47,381 bases of DNA from Deltaproteobacteria bacterium (GTDB taxonomy: Bacteria; Desulfobacterota; Syntrophia; Syntrophales; UBA8958). A program made the translations under genes and the position numbers. Below, piece after piece: positions 4,289 to 40,757 of this stretch (position 1 is its first letter; each line of letters opens with the position of its first letter). Under the pieces are notes generated by a model. The model worked only from the letters and a program-made list of their open reading frames with translations. It was not told the origin of the DNA and did no database searches. Location of the stretch: contig JAKPCH010000096.1 in the NCBI GenBank assembly GCA_029553375.1, forward strand, positions 1 to 47,381, in the 5' to 3' direction.

Positions 4289-5395
4289 TCAGAGGCCCGC
4301 GGCGAAGTCCCTGAGGGCTCCCTTCACCTTGAGCACCTCGTCGCGGGTGAGGTCGTAGAAGAGGGGCAGGGCCAGGACGCGGTCGTAGATCTCCCGGGCC
4401 CCCGGGTAGGCCCCGGCGTCCCCGAGGAGAAAGAGGGGGGTCTCGTAGGGGCGGTTGGCGGTGATCCCCCGGGACCGGAAGAAGGCCCGGGCCTCCTCAA
4501 TGGGGGTGCCGGCCAGACGGACGACGTAGCGGTAACAGGCGTCGCTCCCGTAGTCCCGCGGGACGAGAAGACCGGACCCGGCGAGGGCGGCGTCGTAGGC
4601 CCGGGCGATCCTCCTCCTCTTGGCGACGACGGCGTCGATCTCGGCCAGCTGCGCGAGGCCGAGGAAGGCGAGGAGATCCGAAAGGGAGACGTTGTAGCCG
4701 CGGGGCGTCCCTTTGGAGACGGAGTCGGTCAGCTTGTAGTCCCTGATGCGGGCCGCGATCGCCGACGGCGCCCTGGCGGCCCCGCCGTAGGCCGTGTGGA
4801 GGAGCTTGGTGGCGTAGAAGGAGAAGAAGGCGGCCTCCGCGAGGGCGCCCACGGGCCTCCCCCCCCGGCGGCAGCCGACGGTGTGGGCACAGTCCTCGAT
4901 GGGGAAGGGGAGGTCCCACAGGGCCTGGGGGTTCACGGTCCCGAAGGTGTGGACGACGACGACGGCCAGGGTCTTTTTCGTGAGGCGTCTCTTCAGGTCC
5001 CCTGCGTCGTAGGCGAAGGTGGCGGGGTCCGTGTCGGCCACGACGGGTCTCAAATCCGCGGACCGGACGGCCCAAAAGACGGAAGGGCAGCAGTAGGCGG
5101 GGACGACGACCTCTTCGCCGCGCCCCCGGTGATCCTTGAGGGCCCTCAGGAGGAGCATCAGGGCCGTGGTCCCCGAGTTGACCGTCACGACCTCAGGCGC
5201 CGTGAGGCCCTCGAGGGCCGCCTCGAACGCCGCCGTGACGGGGCCCGCCGCGAGGTGGCGCCCCCGGAGGATCGCCCCCAGGCCCCTGAGGGTCCCCTTG
5301 GGGACATGGGGCCGGGAGAGGGGGATGAGGTCGGAGCGGGAGGGCTCACCCGGCGGGGCCGCGGTGAAGCTCCCCTTTTTCCCCTTGCTTTTCAT
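4289..5395 (-). CDS. DegT/DnrJ/EryC1 family PLP aminotransferase
   Basis: 368-residue sugar-nucleotide aminotransferase-like protein. It has the family opening LSRPHVPKGT, a substrate block VNSGTTALMLLLRAL, and the internal-aldimine Lys in SFYATKLLHTAYGG (Lys197). The family converts keto-sugars of nucleotide sugars to amino-sugars for LPS, O-antigen or glycan building. Some members lack the Lys and are dehydratases; here it is present. Flanking glycosylation genes support a surface-polysaccharide role. A TTGCGC-17-TACAAT promoter reads into this gene with the -10 only six bases from the ATG, and no Shine-Dalgarno is present, so the mRNA may be leaderless. Confidence 0.82.
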   Translation of the reverse strand: MKSKGKKGSFTAAPPGEPSRSDLIPLSRPHVPKGTLRGLGAILRGRHLAAGPVTAAFEAALEGLTAPEVVTVNSGTTALMLLLRALKDHRGRGEEVVVPAYCCPSVFWAVRSADLRPVVADTDPATFAYDAGDLKRRLTKKTLAVVVVHTFGTVNPQALWDLPFPIEDCAHTVGCRRGGRPVGALAEAAFFSFYATKLLHTAYGGAARAPSAIAARIRDYKLTDSVSKGTPRGYNVSLSDLLAFLGLAQLAEIDAVVAKRRRIARAYDAALAGSGLLVPRDYGSDACYRYVVRLAGTPIEEARAFFRSRGITANRPYETPLFLLGDAGAYPGAREIYDRVLALPLFYDLTRDEVLKVKGALRDFAAGL

Positions 5396-9113: not shown

Positions 9114-11534
9114 ATGGCTTATGAGATAAAGAAGGCGGCCGTCCTCGGGGCGGGCGTCATGGGCGCCACCATCGCCGCTCACCTCACCAACGCGGGCATC
9201 CCCTGCTACCTTTTGGACATCGTGCCCTTCGAGCTGACGGAGGCGGACAAGAAGAAGGGCCTCACGGAACAGAGCAAGGAGTGGCGGAACCGTTTCGCCG
9301 CCAACGGCCTGGCCGGCGTGACGAAGGCCAAGCCGGCGGCTTTCTATTCCAAGAAGAACGCCTCCATGATCACCATCGGCAACTTCGAGGACGACCTCGG
9401 GCTCCTCGCCGACGTCGATTGGGTCATCGAGGTCGTGGTGGAGAACCTCAAAATCAAGCAGGACCTCCTGGCCAAGGTGGAAAAGGTGGTGAAACCGACC
9501 TGCATCGTCTCGACGAACACCTCGGGCATCCCCATCAAGGACATCAGCGCCAAGTTCGGCGCCTCCCTGAAGAAGCGCTTCCTGGGGACCCATTTCTTCA
9601 ACCCCCCCCGCTACATGAAGCTCTTGGAGATCATCCCCGGTAAGGAGACGGACAAGGAGGTCGTGGACTTCATGGTCGAGTTCGGCGAGCGGGTCCTCGG
9701 CAAGGGCGTCGTCGTCTGCAAGGACGTCCCCAACTTCGTCGGCAACCGCATCGGCGTCTACGACATCTCCAACGCCGTGCGCCTCACCATGGAGAAGGGC
9801 CTCAAGATCGACGAGGTGGACGCCATTATCAGCAAGGCCATCGGCCGTCCCGGCTCGGCCATCTACGGGACCCTGGACCTCGTCGGTCTGGACACGGGCT
9901 ACCACGTCATGAAGAACCTCTACGAGGCCGTCCCCGATGACGAGGCCCGGGACATGTTCGTCCCCGCCCCCTTCATGGACAAGATGATGGAGCTCAAGTG
10001 GCTGGGCAACAAGACCAAGCAGGGCTTCTACAAGAAGACGAAGGACGCCAAGGGCAAGAAGGTCAAGCTGATGCTCGACTACGAGAAGATGGAGTACGTC
10101 CCCGCCGGGAAGCCCAAGTTCGACTCCATCGCCGCGGCGAAGAAATTGTCGGACCTCGGACCGGCGGCCACCATCAAGGCCGTCTTCTTCGGCGAAGACA
10201 AGGCGGCGGAACTCGTCCGTGAGTACCTCTGCAACAACTTCATCTACGCCGCCAACCGCATACCCGAGATCTGCGACAACATCGTGGCCATCGACAACGC
10301 TATGAAGTGGGGCTACAACCACGCCCTGGGCCCCTTCGAGACGTGGGACGCCGTCGGGGTGAAAGAGGCCGTCGAGGTCATGAAGAAGCTCAAGAAGAAG
10401 GTCCCCAAGAAGGTGGAGGAGATGCTGAAGAAGGGTTTCAACTCCTTCTACCTCAAGAAGGAGGACGGCCTCTACTACTACGATTTCGACACCAAGGACT
10501 ACGTGAAGATCGGTGAGAACCCCCGCATCATCCTCCTGCCCAGCCTCAAGGAGCGCAACAAGGTCGTGGCCTCCAACCCCGGCGCCACCCTCGTGGACAT
10601 CGGCGACGGCGTCGTCTGCCTGGAGTTCCACACGAAGATGAACGCCGTGGACGACAACATCGTGACCATGATCGAGAAGAGCTGCGATATCGTGGAGAAG
10701 GATTTCGTCGGCATGGTCGTGGGCAACCACGCCCCCAACTTCTCGGCGGGGGCCAACATCTTCAAGGTCCTCACCCTCATCCAGCTCGGTGACTGGGACA
10801 TCCTCGAGAAGATGGTGGCGGACTTCCAGAACGCCAACATGCGCATGAAGTACCTCTCCAAACCCGTCGTCACGGCCCCGGCCGGCCTGGCCCTGGGCGG
10901 CGGTTGCGAGATGGCCATGCACGGGGCGAAGTGCCAGCCCTGCGGTGAGACCTACATCGGTCTCGTCGAGGTGGGCGTGGGCGTCATCCCCGCCGGCGGC
11001 GGCTGCAAGGAGATGATGGTCCGCGTGACGGAGGGCATCCCCGACGGCGCCGTCGAGGCCGGTCTCAACCTCCAGACCTTCTACGGCAAGGCCTTCGAGA
11101 ACATCGGGACGGCCAAGGTGGCCACGAGCGCCATGGAGGCCATGGAGCTGGGCTTCATCAGAAAGACCGACGGGATCTCCCTCAACAGGGATCACCAGAT
11201 CTGGGACGCCAAGCAGGTCGTCCTCGGTCTCGCCAAGTTCTACAAGAAGCCCAGGCCCGTCATGATCCCCGTCATGGGGGAGAACTTCCGGGGCATGGCC
11301 GAGGCGATCCTCTACAACATGCGCCACGGCAACTTCGCCACGGACTACGACGTCCATATCGGCCGCAAGCTGGCCTACATCCTCTCGGGGGGCGACTGCG
11401 CCGAGGGGACCTTCGTGACGGAACAGGAGATCCTCGACCTGGAGCGGGAGGCCTTTTTGAGCCTCTGCGGCGAGAAGCGGACCCAGGACCGGATCATGCA
11501 CATGTTGACGACGGGCAAGCCCCTGCGCAACTGA
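9114..11534 (+). CDS. Fused 3-hydroxyacyl-CoA dehydrogenase / enoyl-CoA hydratase (FadN type)
   Basis: 806 residues from ATG 9114, chosen for the AAGGAGGAGA Shine-Dalgarno; an in-frame start at 9063 lacks one. The N-terminal Rossmann site is AVLGAGVMGATIAAHL (Gly12-x-Gly14-x-x-Gly17), then GTHFFNPPRYMKLLE with the catalytic His of L-3-hydroxyacyl-CoA dehydrogenase and a VPNFVGNRIG block. The C-terminal part is a crotonase fold with NFSAGANIF and LALGGGCEMAMHG (oxyanion loops) and a catalytic-type Glu in GLVEVGVGVIP. The order dehydrogenase-then-hydratase matches FadN of Bacillus rather than E. coli FadB. It performs steps 2 and 3 of beta-oxidation. Middle gene of the operon. Confidence 0.92.
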   Translation: MAYEIKKAAVLGAGVMGATIAAHLTNAGIPCYLLDIVPFELTEADKKKGLTEQSKEWRNRFAANGLAGVTKAKPAAFYSKKNASMITIGNFEDDLGLLADVDWVIEVVVENLKIKQDLLAKVEKVVKPTCIVSTNTSGIPIKDISAKFGASLKKRFLGTHFFNPPRYMKLLEIIPGKETDKEVVDFMVEFGERVLGKGVVVCKDVPNFVGNRIGVYDISNAVRLTMEKGLKIDEVDAIISKAIGRPGSAIYGTLDLVGLDTGYHVMKNLYEAVPDDEARDMFVPAPFMDKMMELKWLGNKTKQGFYKKTKDAKGKKVKLMLDYEKMEYVPAGKPKFDSIAAAKKLSDLGPAATIKAVFFGEDKAAELVREYLCNNFIYAANRIPEICDNIVAIDNAMKWGYNHALGPFETWDAVGVKEAVEVMKKLKKKVPKKVEEMLKKGFNSFYLKKEDGLYYYDFDTKDYVKIGENPRIILLPSLKERNKVVASNPGATLVDIGDGVVCLEFHTKMNAVDDNIVTMIEKSCDIVEKDFVGMVVGNHAPNFSAGANIFKVLTLIQLGDWDILEKMVADFQNANMRMKYLSKPVVTAPAGLALGGGCEMAMHGAKCQPCGETYIGLVEVGVGVIPAGGGCKEMMVRVTEGIPDGAVEAGLNLQTFYGKAFENIGTAKVATSAMEAMELGFIRKTDGISLNRDHQIWDAKQVVLGLAKFYKKPRPVMIPVMGENFRGMAEAILYNMRHGNFATDYDVHIGRKLAYILSGGDCAEGTFVTEQEILDLEREAFLSLCGEKRTQDRIMHMLTTGKPLRN

Positions 11535-29271: not shown

Positions 29272-30186
29272 ATGAAACGGCGCCGGCGTCTGGCCTCTTT
29301 GCTGCTCTTCTTCCTCCGCCGCCTCGTCTTGCGGAGGCGGATGCCCCTCATCGCCAGTTTCAAGGTCACCCACCACTGCAACCTCGCCTGCGCCCCCTGT
29401 CCCTTCCACCGTCTCCCCCCTTCCCGGAAGGGTCACATGGACCGCGACACGGCCCGGAAGGCCCTGACGACCCTCAGGGGGACGGGGGTGCCCATCGTCG
29501 TCTTCGAGGGCGGGGAACCCCTCCTGTGGCGGGACGGGGACTATACGATCAGGGAACTTATGGACTACGCCAGGGGGCTCTTCCCCGTCGTGGCCGTGAC
29601 GACGAACGGGACACAGCCCCTGGACGTGCCGGCGGACCGCCTCTGGGTCAGCATCGACGGCCTCAAGGAGACCCACGACCGCCTGCGCTCCGCCTCCTTC
29701 GATACGGTGTGGTCCCATATCGTCTCCTGCGGCCGGCCCTTTATGGTCCACTTCACCGTCAACAGGATCAACCGCCGGGATATCGGTCCCCTCCTGGAGC
29801 GCCTCCGGGAGGTGAGGGGGTTCGGGGGGATGACCGTCCAGTTCTTCTATCCCTACGGCGGGGGGGAGGAGGACCTGACCCTCTCGTCCTTTGAGAGAGG
29901 GGCCGTCGTCGAGGAGGTGGCGGCCCTGAAGGCCCGGGGCTTCCCCATCCTCAATTCCCAAGGACGCCTGCGGGCCATGGTGGAGAACACCTGGAAGTGC
30001 CGCGACGACATCCTGGTCAACGTGGACCCCGACGGGACGGTCACGGAGGGCTGCTACGCGAGGAGAAGGGGCCGGATCGACTGTCGGGCCTGCGGTTTCA
30101 CCCCCGTGGCCGAGGCCTCGGCCGCCGTCGCCCTTCACCCGGGGTCGTTGCGCGCCGGATGGTCCATCTTCCTCGCCCATAGATAG
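29272..30186 (+). CDS. Radical SAM protein, specific function unknown
   Basis: 304 residues. The strongly basic N-terminus MKRRRRLASLLLFFLRRLVLRRR suggests membrane association. The [4Fe-4S]-SAM motif is HHCNLACAPCP (Cys36, Cys40, Cys43), followed by VFEGGEPLLW (SAM-binding GGEP) and LWVSIDGLKETHDRLR. The C-terminal third has four Cys (WKCRDDILVN, EGCYARR, DCRACGF), suggesting an auxiliary cluster as in SPASM/twitch proteins. It resembles the HpnH-like group only loosely. No precursor or partner gene is adjacent; it follows the efflux channel gene by 64 bases without a promoter or Shine-Dalgarno that I can see. Confidence 0.75.
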   Translation: MKRRRRLASLLLFFLRRLVLRRRMPLIASFKVTHHCNLACAPCPFHRLPPSRKGHMDRDTARKALTTLRGTGVPIVVFEGGEPLLWRDGDYTIRELMDYARGLFPVVAVTTNGTQPLDVPADRLWVSIDGLKETHDRLRSASFDTVWSHIVSCGRPFMVHFTVNRINRRDIGPLLERLREVRGFGGMTVQFFYPYGGGEEDLTLSSFERGAVVEEVAALKARGFPILNSQGRLRAMVENTWKCRDDILVNVDPDGTVTEGCYARRRGRIDCRACGFTPVAEASAAVALHPGSLRAGWSIFLAHR

Positions 30187-30362: not shown

Positions 30363-33110
30363 ATGGGTAAGGTAATGCTCTGGAGCGCCCGGCACGCGAA
30401 ACTCGTCGTCGCGGTGATCGTGGCCGTGTCCCTCGTTGCCGCCTTTTTAGCCGTCAAGGTCCGCATCGACTCGAGCACCGAGGGGATGATGATCGAGGGC
30501 GATCCGGCGAAGGCATACCACCGGGAAACGGTGGAGAGGTTCGGCAGCGACAACGTCACCGTCGTCTTCGTCCGTGACAAGAGGCTCTTCACGCCGGAGA
30601 AGCTCAAGATCCTCGAATCCCTCTACTACGACCTGAAGGACCTCCCCGGCGTCGAGCGGGCCGAGAGCCTCTTCTCCGTCACGAACTTCAAGGGGGTGGG
30701 CGGGGCCCTCGAGACGAACCCCCTCATGGACCGCGCCCCCGACACCCAGGAAGAGGCCGACCGGATCAAGGCCGACGCCATGCGCTCGCCCCTGTTCATC
30801 AACAGCCTCGTGTCGGCGGACGGCCAGATGACGGCCGTCAACCTCTACGTCGACGTGGATCGTAACGACCCAGATTTCCATACGAAGTTCTCCAAGAAGG
30901 TCGACGAGGTGGCGGCCAAGTACGAAAAGAGCTTCGACCGTCTCTTCCAGTTCGGCAACTCCTTCAGCCGTCGGGCCATCGCCGAGAACATCATCAGCGA
31001 CCAGATGCGGATCGCCCCCATGGCCGTCTCCGTCTTGGTGATCACCCTCATCCTGGCCCTGAGAAACTTCAGCGCCGGCATGATGCCCATGCTCACGGCG
31101 GGGACGTCCGTCCTTTGGACCTTCGCCTTCATGGTCCTCGTCGGGATCCCCATCAACGTCCTGACGGTCATCGTCCCGTCCATCATGATCGTCGTGGGTT
31201 CCACGGAGGACCTCCACATGCTCTCGGAGTACATGATGGGTATCGAGGAGACCAACGGCGACGCCGACAAGTCCATCGAGCTCATGAGCAGCAAGCTGGG
31301 CCTCGCCGTCCTCATGACGGCCCTGACGACCTTCCTCGGGTTTCTGTCCATCGTCTACAACGACATCTCCATGCTGGTCCAGTTCGGTATCGTCTCCTCC
31401 TTCGCCCTCTTCATCAACCCCTGCATCACCTTTACCCTCGGCCCGGCCTATCTCCACTTCTTCGGCCCCCGGAAGGTGAGGAAACACGAGGAGAAGGTCC
31501 ACTACACGGACCGGATCTTCAACTGGGTCCGCCACGGCATCATCAACCTCGTCAACCACCCGAAGCGCAAGATCGCCGCCTCGGTCGTCTTCGCCCTCTT
31601 CGCCGCCGGCGCCCTCGGTGCGACGTACTTCGTCAAGGTCAACAACGACTTCATCGCCTATTTCAAGGAGAGCTCGGAGCTGCGCCAGCGCAGCGCCGTC
31701 CTCCACAAGGAGCTCTCGGGGGCCCAGACCTTCTTCATCCGCATCACGGGCAACGCCCCCGACACCTTCAAACAGTCGGAGTACCTCTCCCAGCTGGCGG
31801 CCATCCAACAGTTCATGCAGCGGAAGGGCTGGTTCGACAAGACGGAGTCCCTGGCGGACCGGGTGGCCCTCATCAACATGGAGATGCACGACGGGGACCG
31901 CAGCTATTTCCGCATCCCCGAGGATTCCAACCTCGTTTCCCAGTACCTCCTGTTTTTCCAGCGCGACGACCTCTCCCGGTTCGTCACCCCCGATTACAGC
32001 GAGGCCTGCATCATGGTGCGCCACAACGTGAGCGCCAGCTACGAGATCAACGCCATCCTCGCCGAGCTGCGTAAATACATCAAGGAGACCATCAACCCGG
32101 CCTTCAAGTTCGAGTTCACGGGGGAGTACATCCTCGTCAACAAGGCCGCCGAGACCCTGGCCGTCAATTCCGTCACCTCCCTGGGGCTCCTCCTCTTCAT
32201 CGTCTTCGTCTGCATGTACATCCTCTTCTGGTCCGTGAAGGCCGGCCTCATCTCCCTGATCCCCAACGTCTTCCCCATCATCATGATCTTCGGCGTCATG
32301 GGACTCTTCGATATCCCCCTCAACGTGGGGACGGCCATGGTGGCCTGTATCTCCATCGGCATCGCCGTGGACGACACGATGCACCTCATGACGCGGTATA
32401 ACGCCGAGATGCGCCAGCGCCAGAACGGACCCGAGGCCCTGGCGGCGGTCCTCCACGACGAGATCAGACCCGTCATCTCCACCTCCGTGGCCCTCACCCT
32501 GGGGTTCGCCGTCTGCGCCGCCTCGAACTTCGTCCCCGTCATCCAGTTCGGGATCCTCTCGGCGGTGGTCATGGTTGTGGCCCTCCTGGCGGACCTGATC
32601 ATCACCCCCATCCTCCTGTCGACGACCCAGCTCATCACCCTGTGGGATCTGGTGGGTTTGAAACTCCGGGAGGAGGTCATCAAGCAGTCCCCCTTCTTCG
32701 AGGGCCTCAAGGCCTGGCAGCGTAAGAAGGTCTGCCTCCTGGGGAGGATGGTGGAGAAGAACGCCGGCGACTACGTCGTCGTCCAGGGCGAGATGGGCAG
32801 GAGCATGTTTCTCCTCCTCGACGGCGTAGCCGACGTGGTCGGTCATGACGAGAAGACGGGCAGGGACATCACCTTCGCCACCCTCAAGCCCGGCGACGTA
32901 TTCGGCGAGATCGCCCTCATCAAGGCGGGTCCCCGGTCGGCCAACGTCGTGGCCCGGGAACCCGTCAGAATGCTCGAGATCGACTGGGACGGCCTCAAGC
33001 GTATCCATCGTATCTACCCCCGCATCGGCGGCAAGCTGTTCCTCAATCTCGCCAAGATCCTCGGGGAGCGCCTGGTCCACACCAACGAGATGCTCTTCGG
33101 GAAGACTTGA
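30363..33110 (+). CDS. RND (MMPL/HAE3-like) exporter with C-terminal cNMP-binding domain, copy 1
   Basis: 915 residues. One N-terminal membrane helix (about 13-32), a periplasmic domain, a membrane block with sterol-sensing-like RND helices (about 215-400), a second helix around 425, a second periplasmic loop and a second membrane block (about 600-770). The Asp residues in GIAVDDTMHLMTRYNAEM are the proton-relay-like site of this family. The last about 140 residues form a cyclic-nucleotide-binding fold: VVVQGEMGRSMFLLLDGVADVVG and the phosphate cassette FGEIALIKAGPRSANVV. Fusion of a pump to a cNMP sensor suggests gating by a nucleotide or an anchored regulatory role; no cyclase is nearby. 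Unlike HAE1, no adaptor or channel gene is attached. Confidence 0.85.
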   Translation: MGKVMLWSARHAKLVVAVIVAVSLVAAFLAVKVRIDSSTEGMMIEGDPAKAYHRETVERFGSDNVTVVFVRDKRLFTPEKLKILESLYYDLKDLPGVERAESLFSVTNFKGVGGALETNPLMDRAPDTQEEADRIKADAMRSPLFINSLVSADGQMTAVNLYVDVDRNDPDFHTKFSKKVDEVAAKYEKSFDRLFQFGNSFSRRAIAENIISDQMRIAPMAVSVLVITLILALRNFSAGMMPMLTAGTSVLWTFAFMVLVGIPINVLTVIVPSIMIVVGSTEDLHMLSEYMMGIEETNGDADKSIELMSSKLGLAVLMTALTTFLGFLSIVYNDISMLVQFGIVSSFALFINPCITFTLGPAYLHFFGPRKVRKHEEKVHYTDRIFNWVRHGIINLVNHPKRKIAASVVFALFAAGALGATYFVKVNNDFIAYFKESSELRQRSAVLHKELSGAQTFFIRITGNAPDTFKQSEYLSQLAAIQQFMQRKGWFDKTESLADRVALINMEMHDGDRSYFRIPEDSNLVSQYLLFFQRDDLSRFVTPDYSEACIMVRHNVSASYEINAILAELRKYIKETINPAFKFEFTGEYILVNKAAETLAVNSVTSLGLLLFIVFVCMYILFWSVKAGLISLIPNVFPIIMIFGVMGLFDIPLNVGTAMVACISIGIAVDDTMHLMTRYNAEMRQRQNGPEALAAVLHDEIRPVISTSVALTLGFAVCAASNFVPVIQFGILSAVVMVVALLADLIITPILLSTTQLITLWDLVGLKLREEVIKQSPFFEGLKAWQRKKVCLLGRMVEKNAGDYVVVQGEMGRSMFLLLDGVADVVGHDEKTGRDITFATLKPGDVFGEIALIKAGPRSANVVAREPVRMLEIDWDGLKRIHRIYPRIGGKLFLNLAKILGERLVHTNEMLFGKT

Positions 33111-33747: not shown

Positions 33748-36700
33748 ATGACCAAATTAATGCTCTGGAGCCTGCGCAACGCGAAGCTCGTCATTATCAT
33801 CAACGTCATAATTACGATTATTTTCGGCTACTATGCCCTGCAGATTAAGGTGGATTCATCCACGGAAGGGATGATGATCAGCGGCGACCCGGCCAAGGAT
33901 TACCACCAGGACACGGTGCGGAAGTTCGGCAGCGACAACATCACCGTCGTCTTTGTCCGGGACAAAAAGCTCTTTACCCCGGAAAAGCTCAAGGATGTGG
34001 AGAAACTCTACTACGAGCTGAAAGATATCAAGTTCGAGCCGAAGGACCCTGAGGAATACGTTCGGGCCAAGGATCCCGAGGAATATCTGAAGATCAGATA
34101 TCCCGCGGTCTATGCCAAACTCTCCGCCAAGTCTGATGAATATGCCAAGCTGGTCAACAACCGCGAAGAATACAACAAGCTGGTCTATGATCCCGAAACC
34201 TATCTGAAACATAAATTTCCTGATAACTACAAGGAACTCCTCAAGGGCAAGACCCAACCATCCCCGCAGGAGTTGAAGCAGCAGTTTCTCGAGGCGGTGG
34301 AGAGGATCGGGAAGCCCGGCGTGGGGCGCTGTGAAAGCCTCTTCTCCGTAACGAACTTCAAGGGCGTGGGCGGGGGTCTGGAGACGAACCCCCTGATGGA
34401 CCGCGCCCCCGACACCCAGGAAGACGCCGACCGGATCAAGGCCGACGCCCTGAAGAGCCCGCTGTTCATGAACAGCCTGATCGACAGGGACGGCCAGATG
34501 ACGGCCATCAACCTCTATGTGGAAGCCGATCCCACAGAACCGGAATTCCACACCTTTTTCTCCCGGAAGGTCGATGAGGTTTCCGGGAAATACGAAAAGC
34601 TCTTCGACCGGGTTTTCCAGTTCGGCAATTCCTACGGCCGCCGGAACATCGGCGAGAACATCATCAAGGATCAGGCCCAGATCGTTCCCCTGGCCTGTGC
34701 GGTTCTCATCGGGACGATCATCATCGCCCTCCGCAACATCAGGGCGGGTCTTATGCCCATGATCACCGCCGGGACAAGCGTTATCTGGACCTTCGGCTTC
34801 ATGGTCGTGATGGGCATCCCCCTGAATGTCATCACCGTGATTATCCCCTCGATCCTCCTGGTTATCGGGTCCGCCGAAGATCTCCATATGATGCACGAGT
34901 ACCTGGAGGGGATCGAAGAGACCAACGGCAACCGGGACGGCTCCGTCAAGCTCATGGCGAGCAAGCTGGGCCTGGCGGTCCTGATGACCTCGATCACGAC
35001 GATCGTCGGCTTCGCCTCCATCATGTACAACGACATCCTCATGTTGATCCAGTTCGGCGCGGTGTCGACCTTCGCCCTGACGGCCAACTCGCTGTCCACC
35101 TTCACCTTCGGTCCCGCGCTTCTCCACATGTTCGGCCCCGTGAAGGTCCAGAAACACCGGGAGAAGAAGCACTTCATCGACGCCTTCTTCCACGGCATTG
35201 CCGTGGGGACCCTGAAGCTCGTCACGCCCAAGAAGAATAAGATCATCATCACCGTTGTCATGTCCATCCTGACCCTGGCGATGTTCGGCGCCACCTTCCT
35301 CGTCAAGGTGAACAACGACTTCATGGCCTACTTCAAGGCGGATTCGGAGATCAGAAAACGGAGCGATACCCTCCACAAGGAGCTGGCGGGCGCCCAGACC
35401 TTCTTCATCCGCATCTCCAGCGGCATGCCCGAGACCTTCAAGCAGGCCGAGTACCTCTCCCAGGTGGCGGCCCTCCAGCAGTACATGGCCCAGAAGGGCT
35501 GGTTCGACAAGACGGAGTCCCTGGCGGACCGGGTGGCCCTGATCCATCGGGAAATGAACAACGGCGACAAGAAGTTCTATGCCATTCCGGCGGATTCCAA
35601 TCTGATATCCCAGTATCTCCTCTTCTTCCAACGCGACGAGATCTCCCGCTTCGTGACGCCCGATTTCAGCGAGGTGAGTATCATGGTCCGCCACAACGTC
35701 ACCTCGAGCTATGAAACCCAGCAGATCCTCGAAGAGCTGCGGCAGTACATGCGCAAGAACATCAACCCGAACTTCAAGTTTGATTTCACCGGGGAATACA
35801 TCCTCATCAACAAGGCGGCGGAGAGTCTGGTCATGAACTCCGTCACCTCTCTGGCGATGACTCTGGGCATGGTTTTCGCGTGCATCTATTTCCTCTTCTG
35901 GTCCATGAAGGCGGGGCTTATCTCCCTGGTTCCGAATGTCTTCCCCATTATCGGCATCTTCGGGATCATGGGGATCTTCGATGTGCCGCTGAACGTCGGC
36001 ACCGCCATGGTGGCCGACATCGCCATCGGCATCGCCGTGGATGACACCATCCACTTCATGAGCCGTTACAACCTGGCCATGCGGGAGCTCCAGGACCGGG
36101 AGGCCGCCGTGGCGGAGGCGCTCCACGACGAGGTCCGGCCCGTGGTCTGCAGCTCCATCGCCCTGGCCGGCGGCTTTGCCATCTGCGCCGTTTCCCAGTT
36201 CATCCCCGTCATCCAGTTCGGCATCCTCTCCTCGGTGGTTATGATCATCGCCATCTTCAGCGAGCTCCTCATCACCCCCATCCTCCTCCAGTCCACGCAG
36301 CTCATCACTCTGTGGGATATGATCGGCTTGAAACTCCAGGATGCGGTGGTCAAGACCTCGCCCTTTTTTGAGGGTCTGCGCCCCTGGTCGCGGCGGAAGG
36401 TCTGTCTCCTGGGCCGGATGGTGGAGAAGAACGCCGGGGAAAAGGCCGTGGTCCAGGGAGAGTTCGGCAAGAGCATGTACCTCCTGCTGGAGGGCAAGGC
36501 CGAGGCGGTGGGCGTCGATCCCAAGACGGGCAAGGAGATTGTCTTTGCCGTCATCCACCCCGGGGAGATCTTCGGCGAGATCGCCCTGGTCAATCCTGGT
36601 CCCCGTTCCGCCGACGTCCGGGCCCTCGAGCCTATAAAATACCTGGAGATCGACTGGGAAGGCCTCAAGCGTATCCATCGTATCTACCCCCGCATCGGCG

Positions 36701-36780
36701 GCAAGCTGTTCCTCAATCTCGCCAAGATCCTCGGGGACCGCCTGGTCCACACCAGCGGCATGCTCTTCGAGAAGGCCTGA
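33748..36780 (+). CDS. RND (MMPL/HAE3-like) exporter with C-terminal cNMP-binding domain, copy 2 with insertion
   Basis: 1010 residues, paralogue of the gene at 30363 along its whole length. It is longer by exactly 95 residues because of an insertion at about residues 95-189, in the first periplasmic loop. The insert is charged and Tyr-rich and contains two related 17-residue units (DPEEYLKIRYPAVYAKL at 109, DPETYLKHKFPDNYKEL at 148). The rest keeps the proton-relay block GIAVDDTIHFMSRYN and the cNMP cassette FGEIALVNPGPRSADV. The 5' part through the insert is AT-rich; the 3' part is GC-rich and shares long identical DNA stretches with copy 1, so the gene is a mosaic. GGGAGGAGG precedes ATG. 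Confidence 0.85.
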   Translation: MTKLMLWSLRNAKLVIIINVIITIIFGYYALQIKVDSSTEGMMISGDPAKDYHQDTVRKFGSDNITVVFVRDKKLFTPEKLKDVEKLYYELKDIKFEPKDPEEYVRAKDPEEYLKIRYPAVYAKLSAKSDEYAKLVNNREEYNKLVYDPETYLKHKFPDNYKELLKGKTQPSPQELKQQFLEAVERIGKPGVGRCESLFSVTNFKGVGGGLETNPLMDRAPDTQEDADRIKADALKSPLFMNSLIDRDGQMTAINLYVEADPTEPEFHTFFSRKVDEVSGKYEKLFDRVFQFGNSYGRRNIGENIIKDQAQIVPLACAVLIGTIIIALRNIRAGLMPMITAGTSVIWTFGFMVVMGIPLNVITVIIPSILLVIGSAEDLHMMHEYLEGIEETNGNRDGSVKLMASKLGLAVLMTSITTIVGFASIMYNDILMLIQFGAVSTFALTANSLSTFTFGPALLHMFGPVKVQKHREKKHFIDAFFHGIAVGTLKLVTPKKNKIIITVVMSILTLAMFGATFLVKVNNDFMAYFKADSEIRKRSDTLHKELAGAQTFFIRISSGMPETFKQAEYLSQVAALQQYMAQKGWFDKTESLADRVALIHREMNNGDKKFYAIPADSNLISQYLLFFQRDEISRFVTPDFSEVSIMVRHNVTSSYETQQILEELRQYMRKNINPNFKFDFTGEYILINKAAESLVMNSVTSLAMTLGMVFACIYFLFWSMKAGLISLVPNVFPIIGIFGIMGIFDVPLNVGTAMVADIAIGIAVDDTIHFMSRYNLAMRELQDREAAVAEALHDEVRPVVCSSIALAGGFAICAVSQFIPVIQFGILSSVVMIIAIFSELLITPILLQSTQLITLWDMIGLKLQDAVVKTSPFFEGLRPWSRRKVCLLGRMVEKNAGEKAVVQGEFGKSMYLLLEGKAEAVGVDPKTGKEIVFAVIHPGEIFGEIALVNPGPRSADVRALEPIKYLEIDWEGLKRIHRIYPRIGGKLFLNLAKILGDRLVHTSGMLFEKA

Positions 36781-36798: not shown

Positions 36799-36831
36799 GG
36801 GGGGCAGCCTGGGGGCCGCCCCCTTTTTTTT
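36799..36831 (+). terminator. Rho-independent terminator after the second RND-cNMP gene
   Basis: GGGGGC (36800-36805) pairs with GCCCCC (36818-36823), with inner GCC/GGC across an A-C mismatch, loop TGGG(G), then eight T (36824-36831). Confidence 0.85.
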
Positions 36832-36856: not shown

Positions 36857-36886
36857 GACCGGCGGCCCGCGCCGGGTCGTTTTTTT
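36857..36886 (+). terminator. Second, tandem terminator
   Basis: GACC-GGCG pairs with CGCC-GGTC (one bulged G), loop about GCCCG, followed by G and seven T (36880-36886). With the previous hairpin it insulates the cassette downstream from the RND genes. Confidence 0.65.
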
Positions 36887-37034
36887 GAAAATCGTCCATT
36901 TTTATGAATGGATTATGCATTCTGTGTCAGACCAAAAACGAAATTCTTTTCCTCCCCCCCGGCTTGCAGTGGATGGGGGGATAAGGCCCTAAGAGGGAAA
37001 TGGCATTCGGGACGCCGGAGACGGATGTTGCCCG
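36887..37034. other. Spacer upstream of the radical SAM/SPASM cassette
   Basis: AT-rich stretch without a supported gene. Contains a short repeat GAATG..CATTC (about 36906-36923) and a 26-codon frame from ATG 36904 with a CILC motif, but no ribosome site. Confidence 0.35.
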
Positions 37035-37063
37035 TTGACAGGCGTATGGCTTTCATCTAATTC
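37035..37063 (+). promoter_or_regulatory. Promoter of the radical SAM/SPASM cassette
   Basis: TTGACA (37035-37040), 17 bases, TAATTC (37058-37063), 36 bases before the GTG start of the PqqD-like gene, which has AAGGAGGT 6-8 bases upstream. Confidence 0.6.
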
Positions 37064-37098
37064 GTGAAACAGAGGCTGGATATGAAGGAGGTGCCGAG

Positions 37099-37386
37099 GT
37101 GGACGACGTGAACGAGAGGATCCCCATCGCCAACCCCGCCGTGGTCCTGAGGGAGGAGTTCGACGACTGGGCCATCGTCTTCGACCCCGACACGGGCCAG
37201 GCCTTCGGCCTCAACCCCATCGGGGTGATGGTTTGGAAGTCCCTGGACGGTAAGGGATCGGTGGCGGCGATCGCCCGGCGCATCCGCGAGGAGGCGGAGG
37301 GGGTGCCCGAGGACGTGGAGGAGCATATCAGGACCTTCATGGAGGCGGCCGTGAGGCTCGGTCTGGCGGGTTATGAGGTCTCCTAG
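37099..37386 (+). CDS. PqqD-like peptide-recognition protein (ScmD type)
   Basis: 95 residues from GTG 37099 (AAGGAGGT upstream; ATG 37082 is out of frame). PqqD/RRE fold pattern: NPAVVLREEFDDWAIVFDPDTGQAFGLNPIGVMVWKSLDGKGSVAAIARRI..(read in pieces) with VPEDVEEHIRTFMEAAVRLGLAG, i.e. a winged-helix-like domain that binds the leader of a precursor peptide and presents it to a radical SAM enzyme. Its stop overlaps the next radical SAM gene by 14 bases. In the family nomenclature I recall (SynChlorMet cassette) this is ScmD. Its presence argues for a ribosomal peptide as substrate of the enzymes that follow. Confidence 0.85.
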   Translation: MDDVNERIPIANPAVVLREEFDDWAIVFDPDTGQAFGLNPIGVMVWKSLDGKGSVAAIARRIREEAEGVPEDVEEHIRTFMEAAVRLGLAGYEVS

Positions 37387-38518
37387 GGAAGAGGAACCCT
37401 TGCGGGTGATGGCCACCCCGCGCCAGGTGGACGTGGAGATCACCACGGCCTGCAACCTCCGCTGTGCCTATTGCAGTCATTTCACGAGCCCCGGCGACGT
37501 GGGGGAGGATCTGTCCCTCGAGACGTGGCGGGATTTTTTCGCGGAATTGGGGAGGGCGGCGGTGATGTCCGTCACCCTCTCGGGGGGGGAACCCTTCGTG
37601 CGGCCCGACCTCCTCGCGATCATCGAGGCCGTCTGCGCCAACCGCCTGCGTTTCTCCATCCTCACCAACGGCACCTGTATCACTGAAGAAGGGGCCGCCC
37701 ACATCGCCGCCACGGGTCGATGTGACTCCATCCAGATCTCCATCGACGGCGCCGACCCCTTCACCCACGACGCCTTCAGGGGGCGCGGCTCCTTCGGTTT
37801 GGCCGTGGAGGGTGTCCGGATCCTGAGGGAGCACGGCCTACCCGTGACGGTTAGGGTCACCGTCCACCGCCGCAACGTCCGCAGCCTCCCCGAGATCGCC
37901 CGTTTTCTCCTCGAAGACCTGGGTCTTCCCTCCTTCTCCACCAACTCCGCGAGTCACATGGGCCTGTGCCGGAAGAACGCCGCCATGATCCAGCTCACCC
38001 CCGAGGAACACAGCGAGGCCATGGACATCCTCATGGACCTCGCGGAACGCTACGAGGGCAGGATCGACGCCCAGGCCGGCCCCCTGGCCGACGGCCGCCT
38101 CTGGTCGGAGATGGAACGGGCGCGCCTCGAGGGTCTCGACACCCTCCCCGGGCGGGGCTACCTCACGGGCTGCGGGGGACCCTACCAGTCCCTCGCCGTC
38201 CGGGCCGACGGGGCCTACGTCCCCTGCAGCCAGCTCGGCCACCTCGTCTTGGGCTACATCGGCCGGGACGATCTCCTCACGGTCTGGCGGACCCACCCGG
38301 AATTGCAGCGCCTGCGCCGGCGGGTCTTTATACCCCTTGAGGGGCTCGCCTTCTGCCGGGGTTGTCCCTATGTCCCCTACTGCACGGGGAACTGCCCCGC
38401 CTTGGCCTACAACCTGACGGGGGAGACGGATCAGCCAAGTCCCGACGCCTGTCTGCGTCTCTTCCTGGAGCGGGGCGGGAGGCTCCCCCGGGCCCGGGCG
38501 GGCGTGGGGGGACACTGA
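37373..38518 (+). CDS. Radical SAM/SPASM peptide-modifying enzyme (ScmE type)
   Basis: 381 residues from ATG 37373; GTG 37406 or ATG 37409, with GAGGAA upstream, are alternative starts that leave all domains intact. Radical SAM motif TTACNLRCAYCSHF (Cys27, Cys31, Cys34), GGEP in VTLSGGEPFVRPDL, ILTNGT and ISIDGAD blocks. The C-terminal SPASM domain has LTGCGGPYQSLAVRADGAYVPCSQLGHL, then CRGCPYVPYCTGNCPA and a final PSPDACLR, enough Cys for two auxiliary [4Fe-4S] clusters. Organisation and wording of the motifs fit PqqE-like enzymes that install C-C, C-S or epimer modifications in peptides. The AVMSVTLSGGEPF block fits the ScmE group. Confidence 0.85.
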   Translation: MRSPREEEPLRVMATPRQVDVEITTACNLRCAYCSHFTSPGDVGEDLSLETWRDFFAELGRAAVMSVTLSGGEPFVRPDLLAIIEAVCANRLRFSILTNGTCITEEGAAHIAATGRCDSIQISIDGADPFTHDAFRGRGSFGLAVEGVRILREHGLPVTVRVTVHRRNVRSLPEIARFLLEDLGLPSFSTNSASHMGLCRKNAAMIQLTPEEHSEAMDILMDLAERYEGRIDAQAGPLADGRLWSEMERARLEGLDTLPGRGYLTGCGGPYQSLAVRADGAYVPCSQLGHLVLGYIGRDDLLTVWRTHPELQRLRRRVFIPLEGLAFCRGCPYVPYCTGNCPALAYNLTGETDQPSPDACLRLFLERGGRLPRARAGVGGH

Positions 38519-38533
38519 CGGGAGGTCGAGAAG

Positions 38534-39625
38534 GTGGATTACCCCCTCAACCAGCTCTACGCCTACGTGACGGACACCTGCAACCTCCGCTGCCGCCACT
38601 GCTGGATCGCCCCGCGCTACACGGCGGCCCCCGGGGGGGAGGACGGGATCGACGCCGACCTTTTCGCCTCCGTCCTCGACGAGGCCCTGCCCCTGGGCCT
38701 GACGGCCGTGAAGCTGACGGGGGGAGAGCCCCTCTGCCACCCCCGCTTCGACCGCCTCTTGGAGGCCGTCCGGGAGAGGGAGCTGGGTTTGTCCGTGGAG
38801 ACGAACGGCACCCTCGTCACGGCCGACGCGGCCCGTCTGATGGCCTCCCGGGGTGGCGCCTTCGTCTCCGTGAGCCTCGATTCCGCCGACCCCGCCGTCC
38901 ACGAGGCGATCCGGGGCGTGGAGGGATGTTTCGCGGCGGCCGTCAGGGGGATCGAGAACCTCGTCGCGGCGGGCCTGAGGCCCCAGGTGATCATGACCGT
39001 CATGGGGAGGGACCGCCGGGACCTGGAGGGCCTGGCCTTTCTGGCCCGGGACCTGGGGGCCTCGTCGGTGAAATTCAACATCGTCCAGCCCACGGCCCGG
39101 GGGAGGGGTATACACGAACGGGGCGACATGCCGACGGTCCCGGAGCTGGTCGCCCTGGGCCGGTGGGTGGACAGGGAACTGGCGCCGTCCCTGGACATCC
39201 CCGTCATTTTTCATCACCCCCCCGCCTTCTTATCCCTGAGCCGGATGTTCGGCCCCGGGGGCGACGGTTGTCACAACTGCGGTATCAAGGGCATCCTAGG
39301 GATCCTGGCCGACGGTTCCTACGCCCTGTGCGGTATCGGCGTCACCGTGCCCGAGCTGGTCTTCGGCCGGGCCGGCCGGGACCCCCTGGCGGAGGTCTGG
39401 CGCCACAACGAGGTTCTGAGGGGGATCAGGGAAAACCTGCCCCGGGGTCTCAAGGGCGTGTGCGCCTCCTGTCTCCTCAAGGGGGTCTGCCTCGGGGGCT
39501 GCATCGCCGTCAATTACGGGACGACGAAAGACCTCTGGGCCCCCTTCTGGTACTGCCGACAGGCCTTCGAGGCGGGCCTCTTCCCCGAGGGACGCCTCCT
39601 ACCCGGGTCGTTTCCTACGAATTGA
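38534..39625 (+). CDS. Second radical SAM/SPASM peptide-modifying enzyme (ScmF type)
   Basis: 363 residues from GTG 38534 with GGAGGT 7 bases upstream. It opens LNQLYAYVTDTCNLRCRHCWIAP (read in pieces; Cys16, Cys20, Cys23), a form I recognise as typical for the ScmF group. LTGGEPLCHP, VETNGTLVT and VSLDSADPAVHEAI follow. The SPASM region has CHNCGIKGILGILADGSYALCGIG, then CASCLLKGVCLGGCIAVN and WYCRQAF. It differs clearly in sequence from the upstream enzyme, so the two probably act in sequence on one peptide. The third usual partner (ScmC, HPr-kinase-like) is not present in this window. Confidence 0.85.
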   Translation: MDYPLNQLYAYVTDTCNLRCRHCWIAPRYTAAPGGEDGIDADLFASVLDEALPLGLTAVKLTGGEPLCHPRFDRLLEAVRERELGLSVETNGTLVTADAARLMASRGGAFVSVSLDSADPAVHEAIRGVEGCFAAAVRGIENLVAAGLRPQVIMTVMGRDRRDLEGLAFLARDLGASSVKFNIVQPTARGRGIHERGDMPTVPELVALGRWVDRELAPSLDIPVIFHHPPAFLSLSRMFGPGGDGCHNCGIKGILGILADGSYALCGIGVTVPELVFGRAGRDPLAEVWRHNEVLRGIRENLPRGLKGVCASCLLKGVCLGGCIAVNYGTTKDLWAPFWYCRQAFEAGLFPEGRLLPGSFPTN

Positions 39626-39728
39626 GCGGCGGGAGGAAATCGCGAAGGGCAAGATCACACCCGAGCCGCCCCTGTTAATCGACCTTACGGGCGGGGACGC
39701 CGTGGTCCTATCTCTTTTTCTTTGGTGA
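39621..39728 (+). other. Leader-like open frame without canonical start (possible precursor peptide or relic)
   Basis: Directly after the ScmF-type gene one frame, overlapping its stop, reads ..EEIAKGKITPEPPLLIDLTGG.. (in pieces) and ends DAVVLSLFLW at TGA 39726-39728. The segment PEPPLLIDLTGG looks like leader sequences recognised by PqqD-like domains. No ATG, GTG or TTG is available: ATT 39621 (overlapping the ScmF stop) or CTG 39672 would be needed. The 3' part overlaps a possible terminator and the convergent gene end. It may be a real precursor with a rare start, a decayed one, or chance. Confidence 0.3.
39687..39723 (+). terminator. Possible terminator after the cassette
   Basis: Stem ACGG(g)CG / CGCCGT (39687-39703) with a GGGA loop, then after about 5 bases a T-rich tract to 39723. 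The gap and bulge make it weak. Confidence 0.35.
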
Positions 39729-40757
39729 CGCCTCCCGGGGGGGTCGGGGCGGGAAGAGGTCGTCCAGCTGGGGGAAGACGGCATCCGAACCTTCCCATCC
39801 GTAGGCGAGGGTCTCGATGCCCCGCGCCCGCAGCTCGGCGGCCTCTTCGGGCGTCGGGGAACGGGGCAGGACGAGGACCAGAAGGGGATGATCGGTCCGA
39901 CCGGCCCCTTCCCAGAGGAGCAGGGCCGCCTCCCGGCGGACGGTGTCACCCCCCCCTCCCGTGACGACGCGAAAGACCGCCCCCTTGTCCCCCCCGGCCG
40001 ACGATAGGTAGAGATCGCCCCCGTCGTCGTTCGCCGGCCTGTATCCCCGCCCCCGCAGGGCCCCCGCCAGGGCCAGGACCAGGGGGCCGTGATCGCACCG
40101 GCCGGCCAGGTCGAACCCTTCCTCGGCACCGGATCCGCCTATCCGCCGGATCTGGAAACCTCCCGCCTCGAGGGGTATGGCCAGTTGGGGGGAACGCTCG
40201 TCCCGGACCTCGGCCTTGACGGCAGCCACCTTGTGGACGAAGAGGGAGACCTGGTCGGCGAGGGACCGGCTGCCCAGGCAACAGACGACGGCCACCTCCG
40301 CGACCCCGTCACCCTCGTCGAGGTCCGTCCAGACGCCGCGGAACCTCTCGAGGAAGATCTTCTTGCCCATGCCCCGCTGGCCCCCGCCGAGGCGGCCCCG
40401 GTGGACGAGGAAGACCCTCCCCCTGGCGTCGCGCCCGAAGGCGGCCCCCACGCGGCGGTCCCTCCCCTCGGCGGGGACGTTCAGCTCACAGGTTATGGAA
40501 ACCACGGCGCCCTCCTCCGGCCTCTCCGTCCCGAGGAGGGTCCAGATCTGGCCCTCCTCCGTCCGCCGGTGACACATCCACAGGCCGAGTCTCTCCGACC
40601 AGTGGACCCGGGCGGGGAAACGACCCCCGGGATGGCCGATGCAAACGGGGACGCGCCGGTCCCAGAAGGGTCTTAGGCCGGCGAGAAACCGCCCCCGGCA
40701 ACGGGCCACCAGGCGCCTGTCGGTGATGATCTTCAACATGTTTTGGCTGTTTAACAC
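39708..40757 (-). CDS. Hypothetical protein, possible degenerate PD-(D/E)XK-like C-terminal half
   Basis: 349 residues from GTG 40757; ATG 40739 is an equally possible start and neither has a good ribosome site. Not a family I can name. The central part has RDRRVGAAFGRDARGRVFLVHRGRLGGGQRGMGKKIFLERF (in pieces), a Gly/Arg-rich block. The last about 130 residues read DGGDLYLSSAGG..AVFRVVTGGGGDTVRREAALLLW..PLLVLVLPRSPTPEEAAELRARGIETLAYGW. That order of a D in a strand, a strand ending where E-x-K would be, and then helix, strand, helix, strand resembles PD-(D/E)XK nuclease folds. The E-x-K triad is replaced by R-V-V-T, so activity is doubtful. No membrane segments. Confidence 0.55.
   Translation of the reverse strand: MLNSQNMLKIITDRRLVARCRGRFLAGLRPFWDRRVPVCIGHPGGRFPARVHWSERLGLWMCHRRTEEGQIWTLLGTERPEEGAVVSITCELNVPAEGRDRRVGAAFGRDARGRVFLVHRGRLGGGQRGMGKKIFLERFRGVWTDLDEGDGVAEVAVVCCLGSRSLADQVSLFVHKVAAVKAEVRDERSPQLAIPLEAGGFQIRRIGGSGAEEGFDLAGRCDHGPLVLALAGALRGRGYRPANDDGGDLYLSSAGGDKGAVFRVVTGGGGDTVRREAALLLWEGAGRTDHPLLVLVLPRSPTPEEAAELRARGIETLAYGWEGSDAVFPQLDDLFPPRPPREASPKKKR

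Follow-up and report, generated by a model that had tools for sequence, protein, structure and literature searches.

Three adjacent genes for a PqqD-like protein and two radical SAM/SPASM enzymes raise the question of which pathway they serve, and where in the genome the remaining parts of that pathway are encoded. The window analysed here is the whole stretch of 47,381 nucleotides, which forms the start of contig C55 (1-47381) in a genome of 2.40 Mb and 96 contigs. The sequence-only reading had assigned the three genes to the SynChlorMet (Scm) type, and this assignment holds, as ScmD, ScmE and ScmF all exceed the cut-offs of the corresponding NCBIfam equivalogs (117 bits against 100 for TIGR04248, 545 against 400 for TIGR04250 and 488 against 400 for TIGR04251). 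The cluster cysteines, described as intact, are indeed complete, with CX3CX2C motifs at C27/31/34 in ScmE and C16/20/23 in ScmF, followed by SPASM cysteines at C267, C285, C328/331/337/341 and C360 in the former and at C249, C266, C310/313/319/323 and C341 in the latter. Placement in another SPASM group, for example mycofactocin or quinohemoprotein maturation, had been named as the outcome that would overturn the assignment; beyond the three Scm models, no NCBIfam model passes its cut-off for any of the three proteins. Identities as mycofactocin maturase (MftC, 106-121 bits against a cut-off of 265) and as PqqE of the PQQ pathway (65-115 bits against 381) were rejected, as were all other SPASM groups for ScmE and ScmF, each scoring below its cut-off.

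The features of the window and of the partner loci are collected in Table 1. The overlap between scmD and scmE, proposed earlier, is present with the scmE start at 37373 and becomes doubtful with the start at Met13, near which the relatives of ScmE begin and which leaves a short gap after scmD. Upstream of scmD, the tandem terminators described before are found again as two T-tailed hairpins; the scan gave seven terminator sites (several overlapping), with 2.0 expected. The claim of an own promoter fares less evenly: a perfect TTGACA, resembling a -35 element, lies at 37035-37040, but nothing upstream of scmD passed the threshold of a sigma-70-type scan, which leaves an own promoter for scmDEF plausible. 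This hexamer is part of the 15-mer TGCCCGTTGACAGGC, whose only second exact copy in the 331 kb of genome examined is located on contig C34 upstream of the genes for a second PqqD protein (PqqD2) and an ScmA-like precursor; near the kinase gene on contig C57 the 15-mer is missing. As slight evidence, the shared element may represent a promoter or regulatory site common to scmDEF and the C34 locus.

Table 1. Location of the scmDEF genes, their surroundings and the candidate partner genes
Feature	Position	Strand	Basis or remark
Radical SAM protein, 304 aa	window 29272-30186	+	PF04055, 38.6 bits; 7 kb upstream
Two adjoining HAE3-type RND transporters	window 30363-33110 and 33748-36780		C-terminal CRP-like cNMP-binding domain fused to each
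Intrinsic-terminator-like hairpin, T8 tail	window 36811..36823	+	end of upstream RND-cNMP gene
Second terminator-like hairpin, T tail	window 36859..36881	+	terminator scan
15-mer TGCCCGTTGACAGGC containing TTGACA	window 37029..37043	+	recurs exactly at C34:2711-2725
scmD, PqqD-family peptide chaperone	window 37099..37386	+	GTG start, AAGGAGGTG upstream; TIGR04248, PF05402
scmE, radical SAM/SPASM peptide maturase	window 37373..38518; probable true start ATG 37409	+	TIGR04250; start from relatives
scmF, radical SAM/SPASM peptide maturase	window 38534..39625	+	TIGR04251
ORF beside scmF, 349 aa	window 39708-40757	-	no Pfam or NCBIfam match
PqqD2, second PqqD with twin-arginine N-terminus	C34:2968-3369		PqqD search
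ScmA-like precursor, 135 aa	C34:3420-3827		between PqqD2 and nucleotidyltransferase; leader YEPPQIFDL..SDAQA, ten-Cys core
Nucleotidyltransferase	C34:3965-5239		PF14907
ScmC-like HprK/PEPCK-fold protein	C57 about 34486-35408 (L048 about 9487-10409)		TIGR04249 weak match

Exporters had been noted on both sides of scmDEF. The RND-cNMP pumps and the YbhFSR-type system are real, but they are not conserved Scm neighbours, since a search for homologs of the window's RND-cNMP pumps near other Scm cassettes returned generic matches only. As their neighbourhood is not conserved across cassettes, the adjoining exporters were rejected as part of the system.

Neither ScmC nor a precursor is encoded in the window, as the sequence-only reading had stated; for the precursor, both a motif scan and a precursor profile built from 12 sequences (A1) came back empty there. 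The conclusion that these partners are missing, however, does not extend to the genome. A genome-wide search for scmC and for leader-bearing peptides, proposed in the same reading, recovered a divergent ScmC-type kinase on C57 and, on C34, a leader-bearing precursor accompanied by PqqD2 and a nucleotidyltransferase. The implied ribosomal peptide product is upheld as well. The kinase is matched weakly by the ScmC model TIGR04249 (C57:34911-35138, about 30-31 bits, below the cut-off of 125), carries a P-loop GASGAGKST and a conserved DD pair, and belongs to a profile that matches HPr kinase/phosphatase structures. Its AlphaFold2 model (mean pLDDT 81) matches PEPCK and HprK folds. The precursor scores 12.6 bits with the ScmA model TIGR04252, below the cut-off of 35, and is the only gene in the genome matched by profile A1. 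The genome further holds a single ScmE-class enzyme above cut-off and only two PqqD genes, scmD and the C34 PqqD2. We therefore consider it likely that scmDEF is the peptide-modifying part of a RiPP pathway scattered through the genome, its genes lying on the three contigs C34, C55 and C57 instead of in one cassette. Because the genes are unlinked, their pairing relies on homology and co-occurrence.

In a whole-genome search, TIGR04252 found nothing in 14 Scm-positive genomes, and precursors were hence sought through gene neighbourhood; a single-protein search of genome contigs had returned only one true relative. Small ORFs around the Scm loci of other genomes share a leader of the form Y-E-P/K-P-x-I/L-x-D/x-L, followed by a core of cysteine repeats, and the precursor of this genome, with YEPPxIxDL, conforms to it. 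For most candidates TIGR04252 is the best or sole family, always below its cut-off (at best 28.7 of 35). About 60 non-identical sequences were collected, most being long peptides built of repeats, with 2-17 cysteines. Glycine occupies position +3 of 85% of their 482 cysteines, and two thirds of the Cys-Cys spacings are the modal 10 or 11. The ten cysteines of the C34 precursor are spaced 7,3,10,11,10,11,10,11,10 and form nine CxxG motifs; neither the motif count nor the 10/11 repeat was matched in any of 20,000 shuffles.

These repeats bear on the idea of a PQQ- or mycofactocin-like cofactor pathway, in which trimming of the peptide would yield a small redox carrier as the product instead of the repeats. 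The kinship of the enzymes to PqqE and the mycofactocin maturase, together with the PqqD partner, speaks for it, but the respective models score far below cut-off, the precursors are mostly long, regularly spaced CxxG repeats, and the cassette includes a kinase, joined in other genomes by an exporter. We regard a cofactor pathway as very improbable.

The precursor family shows further variation. Family f4 precursors (L151, L154, L155, L180, L039) reach 14-17 cysteines including CC pairs; there are often several precursors per locus, and some genomes carry several ScmC genes. The second ScmA of G116:C201 (L096, about 4509-4850, minus strand) contains an in-frame TAG between its leader (..GVQAVGQ) and its Cys-repeat core, where relatives have Ser. 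It may be a pseudogene, a sequencing error or a case of readthrough.

Co-occurrence links precursor and enzymes across genomes. Among 155 genomes of the order, profile A1 matches all 30 that are ScmE-positive and 5 of the 125 others (Fisher p 3e-27, uncorrected, like the other co-occurrence statistics, for phylogeny or whole-cassette transfer). Two source genomes of the profile belong to this order, and after their removal the count is 28/28. At least four of the five ScmE-negative genomes with a match hold divergent Scm radical-SAM genes, namely an ScmE about 30% identical to that of the window (G366, G367, G404) or an ScmF (G434); the match in G308 lies on a short contig together with ScmC and an S26 peptidase. 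In a phylum sample (n=297), A1 is found in 14/14 Scm-positive genomes and in a further four. In G023, G108 and G116 the match lies beside Scm-like genes, while that in G193, a frame of 1071 aa, is probably false. PF14907, the family of the C34 nucleotidyltransferase, is present in all 14 Scm-positive genomes and in two of 14 controls. ScmA-ScmC pairs multiply jointly in G250, G375 and G378 with D, E and F mostly staying single, a pattern consistent with a kinase tuned to its peptide.

Genomes of the same family display the same genes side by side. In G436, G437 and G439, ScmD, ScmE, PqqD2, ScmA, ScmC, an ScmF-like enzyme (37-40%) and the nucleotidyltransferase lie within about 8 kb, and G415 and G304 have the full seven-gene block with a canonical ScmF. 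The nearest relatives of the scattered genes occur in G434, G436, G437 and G439 (ScmE 67%, PqqD2 45%, nucleotidyltransferase 60%, ScmC 49%, ScmA 69%), with a lead over the next families that is mostly clear and smallest for ScmE. That these relatives sit in compact sister cassettes is the main argument for treating C34, C57 and the window as one system.

The loci could instead stem from two unrelated systems, with scmDEF acting on another precursor and the C34 genes (PqqD2, ScmA, nucleotidyltransferase) and the C57 kinase coming from another pathway or from another organism in the bin. Consistent with this, the loci are on separate contigs, the ScmF of the window is nearest to families other than the sister genomes that hold the relatives of the other parts, and the tetranucleotide correlation of C34 with the window (0.91) falls short of that of C57 (0.96) and of the adjoining stretch (0.98). 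DNA of sister species, however, correlates far less well than either contig (0.64-0.79), and bin contamination is 0.93%. The sister genome G271 is similarly dispersed, with ScmDEF and the nucleotidyltransferase on its C39, ScmC on C44 and ScmA on C7. The single ScmE-class enzyme, single precursor match and two PqqD genes of the genome, as well as the side-by-side nearest relatives, also argue against separate systems, a reading that we find unlikely.

Comparison of 33 cassettes reveals two types. One includes a SipW-like S26 peptidase, often together with an ABC exporter, whereas the other, represented by this genome, has no peptidase and combines PqqD2 with a leader ending in AxA. The S26-like proteins carry the SMxP, HR and GD motifs of SipW-type peptidases. 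By a loose motif, 14/14 cassettes without S26 have a leader with an AxA-like end, as do 2/19 with it (p 1.5e-7); the two exceptions are G033, a double cassette of mixed type, and G013, where the match is probably spurious. Splitting by the twin-arginine PqqD instead gives identical counts (p 1.5e-7), though individual cassettes do not always fall on the same side: G415, which is without S26, has a PqqD2 by homology, its N-terminus unflagged by the motif search, and G033 has twin-arginine PqqD and S26 together. An MsbA-like ABC exporter accompanies 11/21 S26-positive and 0/14 S26-negative cassettes. Both types are present inside families f110 (G403 vs G404) and f111 (G417 vs G407, G408 and G415), indicating that the association is not a single-clade effect; whole-cassette transfer possibly lies behind the distribution.

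The types also help to judge whether the dispersed genes are decaying leftovers without joint function. Their dispersal and the absence of both an S26 peptidase and an exporter partner from the finds in this genome would suit such a remnant. The peptidase, however, is missing throughout the AxA type, compact cassettes included, the reading frames and catalytic motifs of every part in the window, C34 and C57 are undamaged, and the precursor retains its strict repeat. We consider decay hardly probable at all.

The twin arginines of PqqD2 are strongly conserved (R6 at least 90%, R7 100% in 17 sequences, a set partly chosen by this motif), and AlphaFold2 predicts residues 1-30 with low confidence ahead of a confident domain. 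The Pfam TAT_signal model recognises 1/17 of these proteins, so that Tat export is something we infer. Literature searches on twin-arginine export in connection with PqqD or with RiPP leaders yielded no such paper. As a tentative and rather doubtful idea, PqqD2 might bind the leader of the already cross-linked, folded peptide and, through Tat, take this peptide along over the membrane as a hitch-hiker; ordinary signal peptidase I would then cut the AxA end. Such a route would replace the S26 peptidase and the ABC exporter.

Compared with SynChlorMet as modelled by TIGR04248-TIGR04252, the system has the three enzymes above cut-off, a precursor of the ScmA kind and an HprK-like partner, but its ScmA and ScmC are unlinked and below cut-off, it adds the twin-arginine PqqD and the PF14907 nucleotidyltransferase, and it lacks an S26-like peptidase, while beside its parts there was no sign of the ABC exporter type that occurs in other Scm cassettes. 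Since the cut-offs for ScmA and ScmC and the linkage fail, we describe it as a variant system whose enzymes are of the Scm type.

In sactipeptides and ranthipeptides, SPASM radical-SAM maturases act on Cys-rich precursors. Maturases and precursors of the Scm system are alike in this respect, but there are two dissimilar maturases, a kinase, a nucleotidyltransferase and CxxG repeats of 10/11 residues, and the Scm thioether is a prediction.

Phosphorylated and phosphoglycosylated lasso clusters (paeninodin, pseudomycoidin, bsf; PMC8498205, PMC10368454) share a discrete PqqD/RRE protein, a YxxPxL leader, an HPr-kinase homolog, a nucleotidyltransferase (leaving aside whether lasso N proteins equal PF14907) and, in some members, a dedicated exporter. 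Lasso B1 (RRE) proteins are reported to require Tyr, Pro and Leu of the YxxPxL motif for recognition, and a deltaproteobacterial lasso cluster has both kinase and nucleotidyltransferase (PMC10368454). Pseudomycoidin receives its phosphate from the kinase, and hexoses on that phosphate from the nucleotidyltransferase (PMC8498205). Scm differs by two SPASM radical-SAM enzymes instead of lasso cyclase and B2, and by its Cys-repeat core; a scan of the neighbour genes found neither an asparagine synthetase-like cyclase (C) nor a B2 protease. The analogy makes Scm resemble a lasso-type chassis with radical-SAM enzymes in the cyclase's place. One PF14907 frame of G033 (L036 8196-9743) also matches the S26-like peptidase profile, which suggests a nucleotidyltransferase-peptidase fusion, recalling the N-B2 fusions described for lasso clusters.

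Following these likenesses, ScmD would, like lasso RRE proteins, bind the YxxPxI/L leader, and ScmE and ScmF would install radical-derived links at the Cys repeats, at best guess thioethers of the sacti/ranthionine kind. Phosphorylation by ScmC would take place on Ser/Thr of the core, and the nucleotidyltransferase may further modify this phosphate in the manner known from phosphoglycosylated lasso peptides. In the variant without S26-like peptidase and with no dedicated exporter found, the AxA leader would probably be cut by the general signal peptidase, with PqqD2, which has a twin-arginine N-terminus, assisting at or across the membrane. Which crosslink forms, where phosphate is added, what the nucleotidyltransferase does and how the product is exported are all points that we infer.

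Papers found by literature search do not name the Scm cassette or its models, and there appears to be no earlier description of the second cassette type, of the precursor assignment or of the dispersed layout. The analysis contributes a broad family of precursors in which leader and repeat core are clear, two system types and four further Scm partners (PF14907 nucleotidyltransferase, S26 peptidase, ABC exporter and twin-arginine PqqD), which makes Scm chemistry directly testable. Pathway parts scattered in this way would be overlooked by cluster-based mining, and PqqD2 hints that a PqqD domain may act outside the cytoplasm, which would be unusual.

In genomes of the same family (L161, L162, L163 and L185), the Scm cassette lies within an apparent exopolysaccharide export cluster, with Poly_export/SLBB, an AAA_22 ATPase, a low-molecular-weight tyrosine phosphatase and an HD domain.
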